From the NCBI GenBank assembly GCA_010405405.1, contig MU004236.1:727717-791716 (forward strand): a stretch of 64,000 bases of DNA. Direction: 5' to 3'. The notes under the pieces are model-generated. The model was not told the origin of the DNA and made no database searches. It was given only the letters and a program-made list of their open reading frames with translations. Both the position numbers and the translations under genes were made by a program. Positions 2,995 to 64,000 of the stretch are shown here, piece after piece. Source of the stretch: Microthyrium microscopicum (taxonomy: Eukaryota > Ascomycota > Dothideomycetes > Microthyriales > Microthyriaceae). Numbering within the stretch: the stretch's first letter is position 1; every line of letters starts with the position of its first letter.

Positions 2995-5323
2995 ATGCTA
3001 TCACGTTCGCTACTGGGCATTTTCGCCTTGCCACTCATTTCTGCTGTTACTTTTGATATTGACTCAGTCAACCCAAAACTCGCCAAACGTGCTCAAGTTT
3101 GTGAGTCTTCTGTGTGAATTTTGAAATCATCAAAGTGCCTGTTGGTGATTCTCTAAGTCACTGTTCGGTCAGACTGCGGCAGGTTGAACTCTTGGGAGAT
3201 CCATAGGCGTTGGCCAACAATGTACGTGCTATAATGATCATATACTGACAAGCTTCCAGGTGGCTCCAAAGGCTACGACAAAAGCACCAATGCTTATTTC
3301 GGGTCGACCACCGCTTCACTTAGGACTGCCAGTGCTTGTGGAGCTCACTGCCTAGCTGACAGTAAATGCCAATCTTATGCTGTTGGCAGCAATAACTGTC
3401 TACATTATACCGTCGCAGTGTAGGTTCGGCGCATATTGGGGATGACTTGGGATAACTTTGCGATACGTGTTGACTGATAATAGGACGGGGAACTTGAATG
3501 CAAACACGGCAAGCCCCTATGCCTTCTACGACCGTAGCTGCGCTGGGAGCAGCGCCTCCAGCTCCATTTTTGTGACCTCGAGCTCACGCGCCGTGACGTC
3601 TATCCCAGCATCATCTTCATCTGTGCCAGCTTCCTCTTCTGCGCCAGCTTCTTCGTCTGCGCCAGTTTCTTCGTCGTCTGCGCCAGCTTCTTCATCATCA
3701 ACTCCAGCATCTTCAGCATCATCTGCATTGTCGCAGCAGTCGTCGTCGGTCACTTCCACTATCAGCAGCGCAGCTACATCTTCCCGCTCGACAGTATCAA
3801 GCTCAGCTTCAAGTGCACCGATTCCGACTTGCAACGCTGCTGGATATGACACAAATACTCCACAGTCTTTCAAAGATTCATCCAGCGCTGCGTACCGCAG
3901 TCTTGCTGGATGCTCCGGCTTTTGCAAGGCTACGAGTGGATGCGTAAGCTTTGCTTACAGTAGTTCCATTTGCTACTTGTACAACAAGCCTCTGGCCGCA
4001 AATTTCAAGGCCGATGCCAGTTCACCTTATCGCTTCTACGACCTTTCTTGCGTTACTGTATCGTCCAGTAGCTCTTCATTCGTTACTTCCACGATCACTT
4101 CAAGCGCGACTTCTTCTGTGCTGTCTAGCTCTGCATCCAGTTCTGCCGTCGTGTCTAGCTCTGATATCGCAAGCTCGTCCTTCAGTTCAGGTAAGAACTC
4201 TACTTTCACAGTCACCCAGTCGTTTGTTCGACGGAGTCCTATGATGAGGTCGCGCGAAGTGGCTCCCATCGCGATACATGGCTTGCGCAAAACACTTCTA
4301 TCATACGAGCCTTACTCTATCAAAACTTACCACTAACGGTTATAGATGTCTCAAGCACCGCTTCCTCTTCAGCAGTCTCCTCTTCTGCATCATCCTCATC
4401 TGATACTAGCAGTTCTGTTACTAGCTCAGCGGTGTCATCTAGCTCAGATGTGCCGTCTAGCTCATCTACTGTTGTTTCTTCCAGTAGTATAGTAAGCGCC
4501 ACAGCCCCTACTTATACTGCAACCATTAGAGTCAAATCTACGGATGGCGCTAGCGACTATGGATATCTGTTGCCCGCATCAGGCTCATTCTCACATATTG
4601 GATCATTCACCCAAGATCCGGCCGCGGCACTTCAAGTCAGGTTCGTCGTAGACACAACAACCGGCTTAAGCACACAAGGAAATCTTGTAGCGCTGAATCC
4701 CGGCTCCAACACTGATATTCCAGACATTGGTGGCATTGTTGGCGTCAACAACGATAGCAATGATCTCGGTCCAGGTAAGTCATCTCCCAGCTTAGTTTAC
4801 TAGCTAAAAACGTACCTTTATATGATAGAAGCTAACAAATTCAGGTTCTGCCAAGTATGAAATGTAGATCCACGTGCATTAACACTCTTACTGATTATCT
4901 GTAGCTATCTTTTCCTGGGTCAATCAGCTGCCAGTAAGTGTTACCTGAGCTTCCCGACACTTGTTCATTTAATTACATCTAACCTTGATTAGCGCCGGCA
5001 GGAAGTCCGCCAGCAGCAGTCCATAACTCCTATCCAACGGTGGAGGATAGCGAGACGTCTATGGTAAGTCATCCATTCTCTCCAATGTCATTAAACTTCA
5101 CTCGAAATTGAGTACTGACAAAACAATCTAGTGGAGTGCAGATTCAGCAACCGGCGCTTTGACGCCCACTTGGATCAATACAAACGGCATTCATACTGTT
5201 ACATCCTTGGTTCTCGTTCCTGGCAGTAGCGCCATCGTTTTGGTTGGCGACGTGGGAATATTCGAAGCTACCTACTCAACAGGCACACAAGTATCTTTCA
5301 CTCTCACTAATATATCTTCGTAA
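2995..5323 (+). CDS. Secreted protein with two PAN/apple-like domains and Ser-rich linkers
   Basis: Eight exons (2995-3100, 3260-3419, 3484-4190, 4346-4774, 4845-4854, 4905-4933, 4993-5063, 5132-5323) give 567 residues in one frame. It starts with a signal peptide (MLSRSLLGIFALPLISAV). The first PAN-like domain is CGSKGYDKSTNAYF to FYDRSC. A Ser/Ala/Pro-rich repetitive linker follows, then a second PAN-like domain from CNAAGYDTNTPQSF to RFYDLSC, a second Ser-rich linker and a roughly 150-residue C-terminal domain beginning TYTATIRVKSTDGASDYGYL. PAN domains bind carbohydrate or protein, and the linkers are probably O-glycosylated, so a cell-wall or extracellular binding role is likely. No GPI signal is visible. 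One exon is only 10 nt. I do not recognise the C-terminal domain. Confidence 0.78.
3599..3730 (+). repeat. Imperfect Ser/Ala/Pro codon repeat in the PAN-protein linker
   Basis: Imperfect units encode variants of SSAPASSS, built from GCGCCAGCTTCTTC-like blocks. The tract is in frame and lies in the first mucin-like linker. Such tracts vary readily in length by slippage. Confidence 0.7.
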
Positions 5324-22201: not shown

Positions 22202-23259
22202 ATGAAGACTATCTTCCTGGCTTCAGCACTGTTACCCATCCTAGCGTTTGCTAGAGATAACCCATTCGATCCAAAAACCAGTAAAGGCACGTTCGGTCCT
22301 TTCACACCGGCTAAGAAAGCACTCAAATCCGCAACCGGTGCTCCAGCAACAGTCGACGATGATACAGCTCAAGCCCTCCAGACCGCATGCGACAACTGGA
22401 CCGCAGACACGGGAAAAGTGTCCAATTTCCAAAACATTGGCTCATCCACTGCATCTGGCTCCCAGTTCACGAATGCCGCCAACATCGCCTATAAGGCTGA
22501 AGTCGACGAACTAACCCACAAAGCCAGTAAGTCTCACCCTCTTCCTCCTCCTTCAAGTCACTGTCTAACAATACCCTAGTTCTCGACAAGATAATCGGCA
22601 AAGACCCAACCGTCTCCATCGCCAACCAAACCCTCACCAACGGTGTCTTCCAAAGCGTAGTCGACAACCTCCAAATCATGAGCATCCAAGGCAAATCGCG
22701 CGTAAACCTTATCGACACGATAAACAGTGTACGCTGCACGCAGATTCTACCATCCATTGATGCCTACTGTGCCGTGGTCGCGCGCACAATTGGCGGAGGA
22801 ACACAAGCGAAGACAGCAGTTAGGCCTTCCGCTTGTGCAGCGATTGTCGCCGCAGACACGGATCCAGCAGACTATCCAAACGTGCCCAATGTCCCTGGAG
22901 GAACAGCGCTGGCATCTGCGCCGTCTTCGAGTGCCAGTGCCAGTGCTGGCGGCAATGGGGGAAGTAGTTCGAATGGGGGTAATGCAGGAAGCAGCACTGG
23001 GACGACAGGAGGAGGACACCATTCGCATAACAACCGGAAACGATATTTCGCTGGAACGGAATATATTGCAAGAGAAAAGACTCCTAATCGTAAGCGATAT
23101 TTCGCTGGAACGGAATATATTGCGAAAGAGAAGAATACCAACCGCAAACGCTACTTCGCAGGTACGGAATATATTGCCAAAGAGAAGAATTCTAACCGGA
23201 AGCGATACTTCAAAGGCAGCGACTATATCGCGAATGAACCTAGCGAGGTTTCTCATTAG
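22202..23259 (+). CDS. Secreted Kex2-processed repeat protein, candidate RiPP precursor
   Basis: Two exons (22202-22526, 22580-23259) give 334 residues. The ATG at 22202 is used because the upstream in-frame codon is TTG. A signal peptide MKTIFLASALLPILAFA is followed by an unrecognised domain (about residues 18-230) with four Cys (ALQTACDNWTADTG, SVRCTQILPSIDAYCAVV, SACAAI). A Ser/Ala/Gly-rich linker and a GGGHHSHNN hinge come next. Residues 261-334 hold four units, each preceded by Arg-Lys-Arg: YFAGTEYIAREKTPN, YFAGTEYIAKEKNTN, YFAGTEYIAKEKNSN and a divergent last YFKGSDYIANEPSEVSH. RKR is a Kex2 cleavage site, so the late Golgi should release short Tyr-containing peptides. This is the design of fungal KEP proteins and dikaritin precursors. 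It is not an alpha-pheromone. A UstYa-family gene lies about 4 kb away. The product is inferred. Confidence 0.85.
23035..23256 (+). repeat. Four tandem 54-bp units encoding RKR-bounded peptides
   Basis: Units are 23035-23088, 23089-23142, 23143-23196 and 23197-23256; the last is longer and divergent. Units 1 and 2 are nearly identical over the core. Unit 3 differs from unit 2 mostly at third codon positions while keeping YFAGTEYIAKEK. Unit 4 keeps Y-F-x-G-x-x-Y-I-A with conservative changes (T to S, E to D). Confidence 0.92.
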
Positions 23260-23630: not shown

Positions 23631-26229
23631 TCATGCTCCCGTAACGGCCTCGACGCGCTTCAGAAACTCACGTACCCGTCCCACATCATTCTCTGGCTCA
23701 CTCTCCACCGCCTGTACGAGCTGTGGTAACACTGGATCGACTTCATCCTCAGCAACACCAGTACATAATGAGACAACTTTACGGTACTTGCTTTCAAGCT
23801 CAGTATCGCGCGCCTTGAGCGACATGAGGTGCGCGTTAAGACTCGCAAGCAGCTGGTTATACGTGCCAATCTGCGAATTCAGATTCTGCGGGTCTGGGGT
23901 ATCAGCCGGATCTTGGAGGTCGAACGCAGAAGAGTCAGGGAGGAGGTAGTCACTATCAGCATCACCGACAGAGAGCGAAGGAATGCCGCCACGCGCATTG
24001 CCAGAGTTGCCGATACGATCGCGGATTTCACCAACAGCACGTCGCAGGTTCTGGATTCGTTGCTTGCGTTCCTGGCGGCCTTGCAGTTCGGCAGTCTGAG
24101 CGTCGACTTGGGTGGTGAGTACTTTCTGTTTGCTGGAGAGATCACGAATTTCATGGGTGGATTTGTCAATTCGGTCTTGTAGGAGGCGAAGTTCGGTACT
24201 GAATTGGGATGAGGTTTGTGTCATGGATGTAGTGAGAGCTGGATGAAGTTGTTAGTCAGGTCATAATTATAGGCTTAGGAAACATACTTGGCATGAGCTC
24301 CTGGGAAACTTCTTCTGCTTTGCTTGGGACCTTGGACTTGGGACTTTCGGCTATCCTTTGAGATAAGCCTTCCGAGCTCTCTGGGTCTATTGGCTCAACA
24401 CCAAAGTCGACAGGCCGTAATCCTTTATGATTCGGAATGGTTGGGTCAGCTTGCACTTCGACGAGCTGTCGGATTATACTGCTATTCCCAATTCTTGCCA
24501 CTAGATTTAGCGCGGTGTTTCCTGCCATATCTCTGGCATTGACCATCTCGCTCATAAAACGCATGAGACCGATAGGCGCTTTTGGTTGGCTACTATTGCC
24601 ACCATCGAAAGAAGAGCTGGAGTTGTCATTGTTCGTTCTTCGTACAAGGAACTCGAGAAGTGCTTCCAGATAGTATTTTGAGCTTGTGTTTCGACCACGA
24701 ATGCCAGATGCTAAAGCAATGTGATGCAGGATTGTTCGTCCTTTCGAGTCCCTGATCTCTATAAGAGAATTCAGGAGCTCGAGAAGGTCAGGAAAACAAG
24801 TATGATCAAGGCAATTGTTCACTTGGACGGCGGCCATCAAAGGGGTTTCACCAGCGATATTTCCTCGGAAGATACTGGCTCCCTTGGCAATAAGCAGCTT
24901 CATTAGAGGAATCCTTGCGAGCGTTGCAGCCCAGTGGAGAGCGGTGTTTGCCGATTGATCTAAAGGTAGATCGAGATCAGGACCCGAAAGATGTAAGATA
25001 GCCGGATGATTGGTATAATCAGTTCGATGGAGATCGGCAAAGAGATCGAGAAGAAGCGATTGTTTCTCTTCACTAGACTTGTCTGAGGGATGAGGTAGTG
25101 GTGGGTAAGCAATTGGGACATCGCCGTCCGAAGCCATGGCTTGATCTGAAGGCCTGTAGAGGAAAGATTCGTTTGCTTCAGTGGGCGACCCATCACGAAT
25201 GAAAGATTGTGATTCTCCATTCATGTGTGAATAATCAGCATCTGGTGTGCTTGGTCTCATTCGTTTCCTTGGTGGTTCTTGAGAATCCATGCCTCGATCG
25301 AGTTGTTGGGTGATGTATGCAGAATCCGTACCATTGAAACTACGCTCATGATGTAACCCAGGATTACTCCGTTGGCTTGAAGGCTGCTGAGAATTCTGCA
25401 TTGATTCCTGACTATTAGGGAAAGACCGCGCAGCGGAGCCGGGACGTCTTGGAGCGCTTGCCGGCCTTTGGGGAGGAGTATTCAGTCGCGCCGCTCGATT
25501 CATAGCAGATATCGCATTTGATGCTGCGGAGGAGAGGTTGGAGAAGAATGTTCCAGTCCCTTGCGGCCCTTGAGGCTGGCGACCGTCCTGAGTCTGAGTA
25601 TATAGCCGTTTACGATTGGCAGCCATTGCCTGTTCTTTCGTTGGAGTATCGACACCATTTCCAGGTTGACCACTTCCATCGGCACTTAGATCATAGTCCA
25701 GGAGGGGTCGCAAGAGTTCTTCAACACCATACTGTCGGCAGAATTCGCGACCTCGGCGATAATTTATCCAGGTTCCTTGATATTTGCCATAGCCACCTTG
25801 CACTTTTTCATGTTCACCGGTGAGGATCTCTTTCTCTAGAACTTTTGTCCTCTTTCCCTTGTCAACGCCCGCGACCTTTAATATTTGAGTGGCATTGAGC
25901 CACGAGTCGGATCTGCGTCTCATTACAACAACTCTGTTGATAACCATTTCATATACTTGTACTCCGGAGTAAACAGCCTAGTGGGAATTTAGTGCATGCC
26001 ATCAACAAGCAGTGTTAACCAGTTCGCTTACAGTATAAATTTGAGGAGATGGAGCCATTTGCTGATGCGCTCCTCCATTCATATCAGGAAAACTGCTGCG
26101 ATAGCTGGACATGGCGCTCTGTTGGGAGCCATACATCATCTGGCCATTTCCATCTTGGGAGGATGTAAAGGAGGCAACATTACGAGGATCATATGGAGGA
26201 ATAGACATTGTCGGAGCGGTCCCCTGCAT
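23631..26229 (-). CDS. MBP1: MBF transcription factor Mbp1/Res-type: APSES DNA-binding domain plus ankyrin repeats
   Basis: Exons 26229-26032, 25977-24288 and 24238-23631 give 831 residues. The first in-frame ATG is at 26229. An APSES/KilA-N DNA-binding domain runs from IYTAVYSGVQVYEMVINRVV through MRRRSDSWLNATQILKVAGV and GTWINYRRGREFCRQYGVEE. A Ser/Pro/Gln-rich linker follows, then ankyrin-type blocks (LDQSANTALHWAATLARIPL, IAGETPLMAAVQVNN, GRTILHHIALASG, MAGNTALNLVARIGNSSIIR) and a C-terminal coiled-coil segment. Mbp1 with Swi6 forms MBF, which activates G1/S genes through ACGCGT elements. The complete DNA-binding domain makes this Mbp1/Res rather than Swi6. An ACGCGT lies upstream at 26483-26488, so self-regulation is possible. 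Confidence 0.92.
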
Positions 26230-27090: not shown

Positions 27091-28078
27091 TCAGTCAGCG
27101 TGAGGTCCATTTTCATGGTACTCTGATAACGTTCCCCTTTCTATTCTCCTCCTTTTCAACCAGTGTCTAATGTTGTTGAAGTTTCGGCAAGTATGAGTTC
27201 CTCCATGAGCAATATACATCTGCTCTCCATTCATAACCGCGCCTTCTTGTTTATACAATGGTATCGGAGTGAGGTCTCCATGGCACTCAACGACCTGTCG
27301 AACGTAGTCTAGACAATGTTCTTCATTGAATGTTAGCTGAATCGAGCGTCTCGTAGTTGGAGGACTTACCCATATGAACTTCCGAAAAATGTGGCGGAAA
27401 TTGTGGTCCATCCTGATGCAGTTTTCCGATACTTGTGTAGTAGTCTTTGAACATGTTGATTCTGAGCGCGTTCACACAATGTAAGCCGTGGACGACGCCG
27501 ACAGCAGCAAAGTAGTTGCCAGACTTGTTCTCTCCTTTTATCTTGACAAAGTCTTCTCTGGCAAACGGTTTTGCTTCTTCGTCTGTAAGACTAAAGAACT
27601 CGTCTTTCAAGATGTTCGCCCAGTTCTTGTCGATTTCCGGATAGACGGCTGGATTCCCGAAATATCGAGGCTCATTAGCTGGTCTCTCGTACCAGAAGTC
27701 TTTCGCCGTGTTGTTCCAGACTATGCCACCGGAAAACACTTTTTGCTCGAAATCAATGTATTGCCGTGCTTGTTCAAAGTCCGTCGCGAAGCCTGGCTTT
27801 TGCTCATTCACTTCAAGCTGTTTTGCTGCCAGATCAGTGAGAATCTTTTCCAGGTGCCATAAGCGGAAGAGTAGAGCCAGGACGACGATTCCTAAGAGAA
27901 AACATGATGCGGCGGCGAAAAAGAAGAGATTTCGGAATCTATCTGATCTCGAATGGCTGTATAAATAGTGTCCTTCTCTTGTTGGCGTGTCCACTTCAGT
28001 GTCGCTCTGATCATCTTCGCTGAAGTCCTCCCTTATCACTCGTAACGGTTTGCTTTCTTCCATGTATCGTGGGCTCAT
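27091..28078 (-). CDS. UstYa-family (DUF3328) membrane protein, candidate peptide-cyclising oxidase
   Basis: Exons 28078-27370 and 27320-27091 give 312 residues. The longer reading frame starts at TTG, so the ATG at 28078 is chosen. A charged cytosolic N-terminus (about 50 residues) is followed by one membrane helix LFFFAAASCFLLGIVVLALL at 51-70. The lumenal part carries both hallmark HxxHC motifs, HGLHC at 197-201 (followed by VNALR) and HMEHC at 235-239 (followed by LDYVRQ). The second motif spans the intron. The C-terminal block THTCRNFNNIRHW also fits the family. UstYa proteins install oxidative side-chain crosslinks on Kex2-released peptides in ustiloxin, phomopsin, asperipin and victorin pathways. 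The gene is divergent from the LYR gene across 561 bp. Its substrate may be the repeat protein at 22.2-23.3 kb, which is inference from proximity. Confidence 0.9.
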
Positions 28079-31606: not shown

Positions 31607-32338
31607 ATGTTGCTGTATATTGCATTCATAAGCGCTTTCAGCATTACTTCTGTCCTAGCTATGCCGTTGAAGAAAAGAGATGTAGGTCCAGTTCAAAACC
31701 ATTTGGCATTCGCAGCCGAAACATAAATCTAACCATCCCAGAACGACCACAATACCTCCCGTTGTCCCAATTTTTGCGCCGGCACAAACACCACCAGCGA
31801 CCCTCTCTACATATGCGGCGACTCACGACTCGGCCCCGTCACTCTACCCACCGGCATCCCGCTCGACGGCATAGCCGGCCTCGACTCAATCTACCACCGC
31901 TTCGGCGCCCTATGTCCCGGCGAGTTTCTCGCCAAATACACCGATCCTACAACTGGCCAATTCGTCTATCCACCGTTCAGCGGCTTCCAAATCGACACCA
32001 CAGGAAAAGCATTCACGGCCAAAGTGACGCTCCCTCTGGGGATGGTCCTCGATCGCTTTGGCTCCGAGAATGGGACATACATGAGTCCTGGCGGTGCGTC
32101 ATATGCGCAGCGAGCGCTGCCGCCGACAAATCTGGACGCATTGCCAGGGGCGGCTTATCCATATAACTATCATGTATATACTGTTTCGAGGGTGATGGTT
32201 GTGGAGTCTGGAGTGATTGCGCCGTGGTTTGGACAACCGGGGTTTGGGGTACAATTCCTGATGCCTTTTAATATCACTTCGTTGGTTGAGCAGGGGTTTT
32301 TGAGCAGGCTCAATTTGACTGCGGATCCGGATTGGTAG
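31607..32338 (+). CDS. Secreted TNT-domain protein, probable NAD glycohydrolase
   Basis: Exons 31607-31681 and 31742-32338 give 223 residues. A signal peptide (MLLYIAFISAFSITSVLA) is followed by MPLKKRD, a likely Kex2 site. The domain has Cys-rich segments (SRCPNFCAG, LYICGDS, ALCPGEF) and N-glycosylation sequons. It ends in the TNT-like signature: LDRFGSENGTYMSPGG, YAQRALPP, YHVYTVSR, and APWFGQPGFGVQF. TNT is the fold of a mycobacterial NAD-hydrolysing toxin, and filamentous fungi secrete or display homologous NADases. The Arg of QRALPP and the Gln of GVQF match residues conserved in the fold. The presumed reaction is NAD to nicotinamide plus ADP-ribose. The role (defence, competition or host interaction) is inference. 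Confidence 0.82.
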
Positions 32339-62849: not shown

Positions 62850-63027
62850 AATGTACTACTTAGGTCTTTTGATATTAGATATTAGAATTGAAGTAGAAGA
62901 GGTAACCAGGGTTGGTAAACTATTTAGTCTACTCTATTATCAGCCAATACTAGTACTAGACTAGTTTTTTATTTTCAATACTAGTACTAAATAGTATTAG
63001 TATACTCCAAGAATAGTTAATAAATAG

Positions 63028-63108
63028 ACTAGTATTTTCTAATACTAGTTACTAACTAGTAATAATACTATTATAATAACTAGTATTTACTATTATTTAA
63101 TACTAGTT
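63028..63108. repeat. Cluster of ACTAGTATT/AATACTAGT inverted repeats
   Basis: Inverted pairs lie at 63028-63036 with 63041-63049 (spacer TTCT) and at 63078-63087 with 63099-63108 (spacer 11 nt). Further AATACTAGT-like copies occur at about 62945-62980. Confidence 0.7.
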
Positions 63109-63488
63109 TTTTAAATCTAATAAAAACTATAGCATTTAAACCAGCTAGTTACATAGATTCTAATGCTAGTCTTAGTTTTCTTCTCAGACTAACCATTCTA
63201 GGATAAAGTTTAAATTTAGTATTTTTTTAATATTATTTTAGTATTAAAGTTAATTATATAGTCTAGTATTAAGTAAAATAAGCTAAAATTTAGACACTAG
63301 GCTATTAAATTTATAAGAAATAGGAAAAAAAATAAATTAGAGCTATATTTAGTAATTATATATTAAAACGTTAAAAATACGTTATTAAGAACATAAAGTT
63401 ATAGAGATAAATTATTTAAATAAGATAAGAAAGAATAATAAAGGTAAAAAGATAAAATATAGTAGTTTTACTATAAATCTATATATAT

Positions 63489-63517
63489 TTAGACTCCTTA
63501 TTTTATAAGGAGTCTAA
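63489..63517. repeat. Perfect 12-bp inverted repeat (hairpin)
   Basis: The arms TTAGACTCCTTA (63489-63500) and TAAGGAGTCTAA (63506-63517) flank a 5-nt loop TTTTA. It contains the G/C bases that the surrounding block mostly lacks. Confidence 0.85.
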
Positions 63518-63520
63518 CTA

Positions 63521-63544
63521 TAGTATTTTTAGCTAAAAATACTA
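63521..63544. repeat. Perfect 24-bp palindrome
   Basis: The half-site TAGTATTTTTAG is directly followed by its own reverse complement, with no spacer. It begins 3 bp after the 12-bp hairpin. Confidence 0.9.
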
Positions 63545-63706
63545 AGTATATAAAAAGTTATAGAGGTTTCTAGATTAATAAAATATTAAAACTATTATAT
63601 TTTGTAAATATATAGCTATTAAAGCTATAATAGTAGAATATTATATTATATTACTATACTAATATATTGTAGTAAATATATAGTATATAGTAAAGCTAAT
63701 TACTAG

Positions 63707-63792
63707 TCTTATTTAGGCTTAATACTTAAGTTATAAAAAATATCTATATATATTATTTTATTTAATTATTTACGTACTAAGCCTAAATAAGA
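63707..63792. repeat. 15-bp inverted repeat with 56-bp loop
   Basis: The arm TCTTATTTAGGCTTA (63707-63721) is repeated in reverse complement as TAAGCCTAAATAAGA (63778-63792). Confidence 0.85.
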
Positions 63793-64000
63793 AACGAATT
63801 CTATATTATTATAAACTATAAACTCTAAGGTACTTATAATATACTTTAAATTTATTATATCTAGTATATAGAATTACTTATACTATATTATAAAAGATTA
63901 GAAAATTAAGATTTTATCTAAAATTAAATTTTATATAAAATAGTTCTAGACTAATATAGTAATATTTCTATATAAAAATATATACTATTAAAGTCTAGAA

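Follow-up and report, generated by a model that had tools for sequence, protein, structure and literature searches.

Organization of the precursor gene and its surroundings

The window, which here means the whole 64-kb stretch of DNA analyzed, lies on contig C7 of the 36.9-Mb Microthyrium microscopicum genome and contains a gene for a repeat-bearing precursor protein, a UstYa-family (DUF3328) gene and a transcription factor gene between them:

22202..22526, plus strand: precursor exon 1, encoding the signal peptide MKTIFLASALLPILAFA (22202-22252) and then the start of the helical domain
22527..22579, plus strand: precursor intron, 53 bp, GTAAGT...CTAG, whose splicing yields the public 334-aa protein exactly
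22580..23259, plus strand: precursor exon 2, encoding the remaining helical domain, the linker, the four repeats and the stop
22262..22899, plus strand: conserved four-helix-bundle domain of the secreted protein (residues ~21-215, split by the intron; from AlphaFold and alignment)
22900..23031, plus strand: Ser/Gly/Asn-rich linker ending in GGGHHSHN (residues 216-259; low model confidence)
23032..23085, plus strand: repeat unit 1, NRKR YFAGTEYIAREKTP
23086..23139, plus strand: repeat unit 2, NRKR YFAGTEYIAKEKNT
23140..23193, plus strand: repeat unit 3, NRKR YFAGTEYIAKEKNS
23194..23259, plus strand: repeat unit 4 and C-terminus, NRKR YFKGSDYIANEPSEVSH, stop
23631..26229, minus strand: KilA-N (APSES) and ankyrin transcription factor, with the coiled-coil ORF 23631-24238 as its last coding exon
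24239-24287, minus strand: intron of the APSES gene, whose putative start codon is at 26229
27091..28078, minus strand: UstYa/DUF3328 gene, exons 28078-27370 and 27320-27091, 312 aa, modeled by eye

The spliced product of 22202-23259 comprises 334 aa and is 100% identical, over its full length, to the hypothetical protein BT63DRAFT_456013 of M. microscopicum, so that the gene model of an earlier sequence-only reading of this DNA, with its single 53-bp intron, matches the public model. The signal peptide reported in that reading is also present; judged by hydropathy and by eye, it has a Kyte-Doolittle mean of 2.29 over residues 3-16. The protein bears the UniRef name 'Cell wall protein' and has no Pfam match at 0.01. 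Additionally, the profile of the fungal hydrophobic-surface-binding protein HsbA (PF12296) has 20 matches genome-wide, none of them at the precursor gene. The Ser/Gly/Asn-rich linker is probably disordered, judging from the structural model.

The UstYa gene is found 3.8 kb from the precursor gene, with one APSES-factor gene between the two. Its product matches PF11807 with E=2e-32 over profile positions 10-219 of 220, carries both HXXHC motifs (HGLHC at residue 197 and HMEHC at residue 235) and has a single hydrophobic segment, at residues 53-71, fit for a transmembrane helix. The intervening KilA-N-ankyrin gene, presumably MBP1-like, probably stands outside the peptide system. The ORF 23631-24224 was considered as a separate coiled-coil gene and rejected, since in-frame splicing joins it to the APSES gene; therefore, one gene and not two separates precursor and UstYa.

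Other genes nearby encode an MFS transporter (~18.8-20.0 kb, the sole transporter-like match near the precursor), a Ras-type GTPase, a LYR protein, a GNAT protein, a TNT-domain protein and histidine-biosynthesis enzymes. No tyrosinase match was found within the window, and neither a methyltransferase nor a peptidase was found among its 27 ORFs scanned with Pfam, a scan that short exons could escape. A single UstYa gene is present at the precursor locus, and ARAGORN detected no tRNA. The TNT-domain ORF, at 31733-32338 on the plus strand, matches PF14021 with E=2e-32, and this domain is one of fungal surface NADases. Elsewhere in the window, a Ser/Ala-rich ORF (3458-4336) with no Pfam match at 0.001 has short tandem arrays within and just beyond it (3458-4464), and, toward the end of the window (62970-63941), several tandem repeats rich in AT possibly mark an AT-rich island.

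Repeat units and selection

The sequence-only reading had described 54-bp tandem units with RKR before each of them and the consensus Y-F-x-G-[TS]-[ED]-Y-I-A-x-E, all of which holds in four of four units. The C-terminal array (23032-23247) consists of four 18-aa units of 54 bp each, every one preceded by Arg-Lys-Arg and sharing the core YFxG[TS][ED]YIA, with two Tyr and one Phe in each. Three units lie between dibasic sites and the fourth is C-terminal, an arrangement that agrees with the repeat criterion for Kex2-repeat proteins (KEPs), namely three or more similar dibasic-bounded repeats with a length of 8 aa or more, and together they cover 72 of the 334 residues (~22%). With Tandem Repeats Finder, the array scores 227 and 262, the top two of the 10 rows obtained for the window.

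When the six unit pairs were summed, pN/pS was 0.24 (48.5 synonymous and 43.5 nonsynonymous differences over 68 and 256 sites, respectively); the value was 0.18 for the YFxGxxYIA core and 0.50 for the spacer. In the NRKR codons, 15 differences were synonymous and 0 nonsynonymous. The low ratio and the invariant NRKR indicate that the array is not a chance frame; purifying selection acts between the units, most strongly on the cleavage site and the core. Between units 2 and 3, for example, nine changes are synonymous and one is nonsynonymous, and this predominance of synonymous differences fits selection on the peptide. Some homogenization between the units is possible.

When the repeat region (residues 252-334) was compared with the 203 candidates that share words with it in a database of 5.8 billion proteins, the only match was to the region itself. 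The core YFAGTEYIA was not found in the literature searched, a search that did not extend to the supplementary tables of PMC6339444 and PMC7329392, which may list the protein. The earlier claim that the core motif is undescribed stands within this scope. No literature was found on the secretome of M. microscopicum, the genome papers on the species not being, by title, on peptides.

UstYa genes and Kex2-repeat proteins elsewhere in the genome

A PF11807 search of the 36.9 Mb gave 22 exon matches, corresponding to at least 14 UstYa genes at no fewer than 12 loci. The chance of a random gene lying this near a UstYa gene is P ~0.003-0.004, a value computed after the pair had been seen and assuming random placement. 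A single P_proprotein (Kex2-type) gene match was found in the genome.

Dibasic-bounded repeats were scanned in six frames over ~20 kb around ten other UstYa loci, ~5 kb at the locus on contig C9 and the whole window. Because a hit requires three similar segments within a single unspliced ORF, KEPs such as spliced ones can be missed; the only control, one triplet shuffle, gave 0 hits. The 22 rows obtained correspond to five copies of the precursor (from overlapping loci), five of an out-of-frame ORF over the precursor, three other KEPs and nine discarded by eye. Among the latter, L012, L036, L037, L044, L047 and L048 lacked real repeats, being Arg-rich or coiled-coil ORFs; the remaining three rows were out-of-frame or antisense ORFs of L050. 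The three other KEPs are the following:

L035:7553-7946 (G000:C15 ~636552-636945): C15 KEP, five EGVVTWADVSKR units, ~2 kb from a UstYa match
L050:1766-2668 (G000:C12 ~497566-498468): C12 KEP with more than one kind of core, among them EPRDWSKWSFEIPA (four units) and GGWVAKL (two units), ~1.4 kb from a UstYa match
L024:2994-3290 (G000:C9 ~1835425-1835721): C9 KEP, ARDPHHAAAKGAKK repeats near two UstYa genes

Therefore, three of the 11 other UstYa loci have a Kex2-repeat protein ~1-2 kb from the UstYa match and, with the precursor locus included, a KEP is found within a few kb at 4 of 12, the precursor pair being the most distant of the four. These three pairs resemble the precursor locus in that Kex2-bounded repeats lie near a UstYa match, but their cores are different, and the C15 protein consists of a signal peptide and repeats only (a signal peptide and a short intron, identified by eye, precede its five GVVTWADVSKR units). 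The di-histidine cores of the C9 protein, whose open frame extends past the analyzed stretch, resemble the HH-type KEPs of PMC7329392. Within the 64-kb window, the scan revealed no other KEP, although spliced ones could escape it.

A conserved carrier domain with no repeats found in its relatives

The middle part of the protein had gone unmentioned in the sequence-only reading. AlphaFold, run with 80 aligned sequences, modeled residues 21-210 with block pLDDT values of 92-98, including four long helices at 53-82, 86-114, 118-149 and 152-179, with low confidence from about residue 220. Residues 53-200 have a mean identity of 64% to 79 aligned relatives, and two cysteines hardly vary, Cys161 being present in 79 and Cys194 in 78 of 80 rows. 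Two protein searches (96 rows each) gave 99 proteins in total, the precursor included, and residues 40-212 were matched at E<=0.001 by 96 of them. The relatives come from Microthyrium, Tothia, Venturia, Verruconis, Rhizodiscina and many environmental contigs. With Pfam at E<=0.01, only one of 80 scanned family members was matched, to an unrelated-looking family. In a tree of 79 rows and 147 columns, in which many forks were left open, the precursor branch is short (0.076), which suggests that its domain is as constrained as in the repeat-free relatives and is not a decayed leader.

Neither three similar dibasic-bounded segments nor YFxG repeats were found in any of the 98 relatives, 51 of which have at least 90 residues past the LPSI-type motif of the domain; about half of the 98 are short or truncated ORFs, and many rows are exon-limited ORFs, where the lack of a dibasic tail often means that the C-terminus lies outside the ORF. 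Homologues with unconserved repeats were the outcome that the sequence-only reading had named as speaking against it, and this is what was observed. Nevertheless, the homologues share the N-terminal domain and not the cargo, and we therefore read the YFxG repeats as putative lineage-specific cargo and not their restriction as a sign that processing is absent. Three paralogues of the domain occur in the same genome (C8:2378450, C5:867228 and C1:4220665, with P0051 and P0044 among the relatives' rows), none with repeats in the parts seen and each at least 262 kb from any UstYa match.

With the precursor included, 52 members extend at least 90 residues beyond this motif, and in 35 of them a [KR]R site precedes the C-terminus by 3-12 residues. 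When the last 60 residues were shuffled 1000 times, the mean was 4.3 and the maximum 10. The count of 35 is inflated by relatedness and is not one of independent events, since close relatives are among the rows, as are a few that appear misframed after an intron (P0022, P0023, P0045 and P0079). The precursor is among the 17 members without such a site, since its last dibasic site lies 17 residues from the end. Typical single tails are RRSMAFVA and RRSVKFAA, with KRWHPRLFQV in the closest relatives, and their distribution in the tree is scattered. P0002, P0003, P0005, P0051, P0067, P0068 and others terminate in this way, with one dibasic site and a short tail behind it.

These tails raise a wider reading, which we consider rather unlikely: the helical-bundle family could be made up of widespread carriers that release a short C-terminal peptide, four Kex2 cassettes having arisen in Microthyrium in place of the single-copy tail or by its amplification and come under a UstYa oxidase. 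If this were true, the locus would offer a snapshot of a RiPP precursor arising from an ordinary secreted protein. The relatives with a single dibasic tail provide a testable route for a possible origin of RiPP precursors.

Proposed pathway and alternative explanations

The reading that we favor, with confidence somewhat above even, is that the precursor is a Kex2-processed repeat protein whose peptides are probably modified by the neighboring UstYa oxidase in a dikaritin-like manner. The gene structure, the conservation of the repeats, the intact UstYa gene with both HXXHC motifs and the Kex2-type gene were observed in the sequence, and the expression and cleavage of the precursor, its pairing with UstYa, the chemistry and the biological role are inferred. 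The precursor would enter the secretory pathway, where Kex2 would cut after each Arg-Lys-Arg in the Golgi and a Kex1-type carboxypeptidase would remove the basic residues from the released peptides, giving the helical-bundle protein and the four peptides YFAGTEYIAREKTPN, YFAGTEYIAKEKNTN, YFAGTEYIAKEKNSN and YFKGSDYIANEPSEVSH. In the same compartment, the UstYa oxidase would meet the YFAGTEYIA/YFKGSDYIA cores, either released or still tethered, and oxidize them by cross-linking or hydroxylation, with Tyr1 and/or Tyr7 as the most likely sites, resulting in a dikaritin-like secreted peptide. The cross-linking of the cores through Tyr and Phe is putative.

According to PMC12435403, the DUF3328 protein CctR was found in membranes of Golgi, endosomes and vacuoles, with its catalytic part proposed to be luminal, and has a binuclear copper centre involving two HXXHC motifs; dependence on copper and O2 was also described for ApnU and AprY. 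The UstYa protein encoded at 27091-28078 has the same layout as CctR. The UstYa-family members characterized so far are copper-dependent. Regarding function, a role of the peptides against other microbes would be a guess by analogy, in line with ideas put forward for KEPs and dikaritins in PMC9769878 and PMC9632046.

Several observations weigh on the other side. An intervening APSES gene without evident biosynthetic role, a gap of 3.8 kb, larger than in the other three pairs, the lack of other tailoring genes among the ORFs scanned and the lack of repeats in the 98 homologues found count against the favored reading. The intervening gene, the lack of further tailoring genes in that scan and the lineage-restricted repeats leave room for linear peptides or for an uncleaved surface protein. 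In the former case, the protein would be a true Kex2 precursor whose peptides, pheromone-like or directed at microbes, are exported unmodified, with UstYa acting on something else. This is a possible outcome, if on the unlikely side: 78% of KEPs have no nearby DUF3328 gene (PMC7329392), and agaricomycetes have been found to yield KEP peptides in linear or minimally modified form (PMC9769878). In addition, an apparently unrelated gene separates the precursor from UstYa, and no other tailoring gene was found among the ORFs scanned. However, the proximity of UstYa, hardly expected by chance at the P value above, argues for a pairing, the window scan, within its limit for spliced KEPs, offered UstYa no alternative partner, and the retention of two Tyr and one Phe in all four cores also speaks against unmodified peptides.

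The N-terminal domain is conserved in its own right; the intact chain may therefore be secreted to serve some other function. Under such an explanation, the helical bundle would be the working part of a surface or cell-wall protein and the basic repeats a never-cut attachment or charge-rich tail, which would be consistent with the UniRef name, with the bundle being the conserved part (its identity to the 79 relatives and its short branch) and with the basic low-complexity tails of many relatives. Nevertheless, we regard it as quite improbable, since RKR is invariant in four of four units, the NRKR codons vary only synonymously, the units keep a defined hydrophobic/acidic core and not bulk charge, and a Kex2-type gene is present in the genome.

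Comparison with known systems

In PMC7329392, 7878 KEPs were assigned to 838 types plus 2560 stand-alone proteins; a DUF3328 gene lay within 15 genes of 22% of KEPs (~30% in Ascomycota), at a mean distance of 3.09 genes, and Tyr was commoner in the repeats of DUF3328-associated KEPs (65.6% vs 38.2%). KEP types with Pfam hits included Hydrophobin_2 (1/50 with DUF3328) and Chitin_bind_1 (0/11). Like KEPs as described in PMC6339444 and PMC7329392, the present precursor has a signal peptide and at least three dibasic-bounded repeats, with a coverage of ~22% that exceeds the 15% cut of PMC6339444. By the criteria given in both papers it is a KEP at the sequence level, the release by Kex2 itself being predicted. 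However, it differs from KEPs in that its repeats stand behind a conserved helical bundle of ~195 residues whose 98 relatives found show no such repeats.

The precursor shares with dikaritins (ustiloxin, phomopsin and asperipin-2a) the Tyr cores, the Kex2 sites and a UstYa gene within a few genes, but its core is YFxG[TS][ED]YIA, whereas theirs are YAIG, YVIG or YVIP (PMC7329392) or the asperipin core. The locus also differs in having a single UstYa gene (as asperipin-2a does, PMC7329392), no tyrosinase and one apparently non-biosynthetic gene between. The later definition of dikaritins rests on the DUF3328/UstYa enzyme and the older one on a tyrosinase, a methyltransferase, several DUF3328 genes and a transporter or peptidase, some of which are absent from certain functional clusters (PMC12048977). 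At the gene level, a UstYa with HGLHC and HMEHC and an aromatic repeated core agree with the later definition, and the older five-gene set was not found at the precursor locus, hence the term dikaritin-like. The dikaritin likeness drawn in the sequence-only reading is thus strengthened by a complete UstYa-family gene one gene away, which that reading had missed. To our knowledge, no characterized dikaritin precursor has such a conserved helical-bundle domain. Additionally, the cores of the epichloecyclin precursor GigA and of the victorin precursor presumably differ from the one described here. Both precursors are multi-core and secreted, like the present one, and their cores are cyclized via aromatic and aliphatic side chains, a likeness of description (PMC9233826).

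The possible new RiPP family proposed in the sequence-only reading is upheld in its core, which is new, and not in its class, since KEPs with a UstYa neighbor and highly diverse cores were already described (PMC7329392); among thousands of such diverse KEPs, a new core alone is ordinary. If only linear peptides were made, the precursor would be one more KEP among thousands. If the peptides were made and cross-linked, they would extend a little-studied family of copper oxidases by a new core, on a precursor whose Kex2 cassettes follow a conserved folded secreted domain and not directly the signal peptide. Thus, in comparison with the known systems, the unusual part is the placement of Kex2 cassettes on a conserved helical-bundle carrier and not a new RiPP class.
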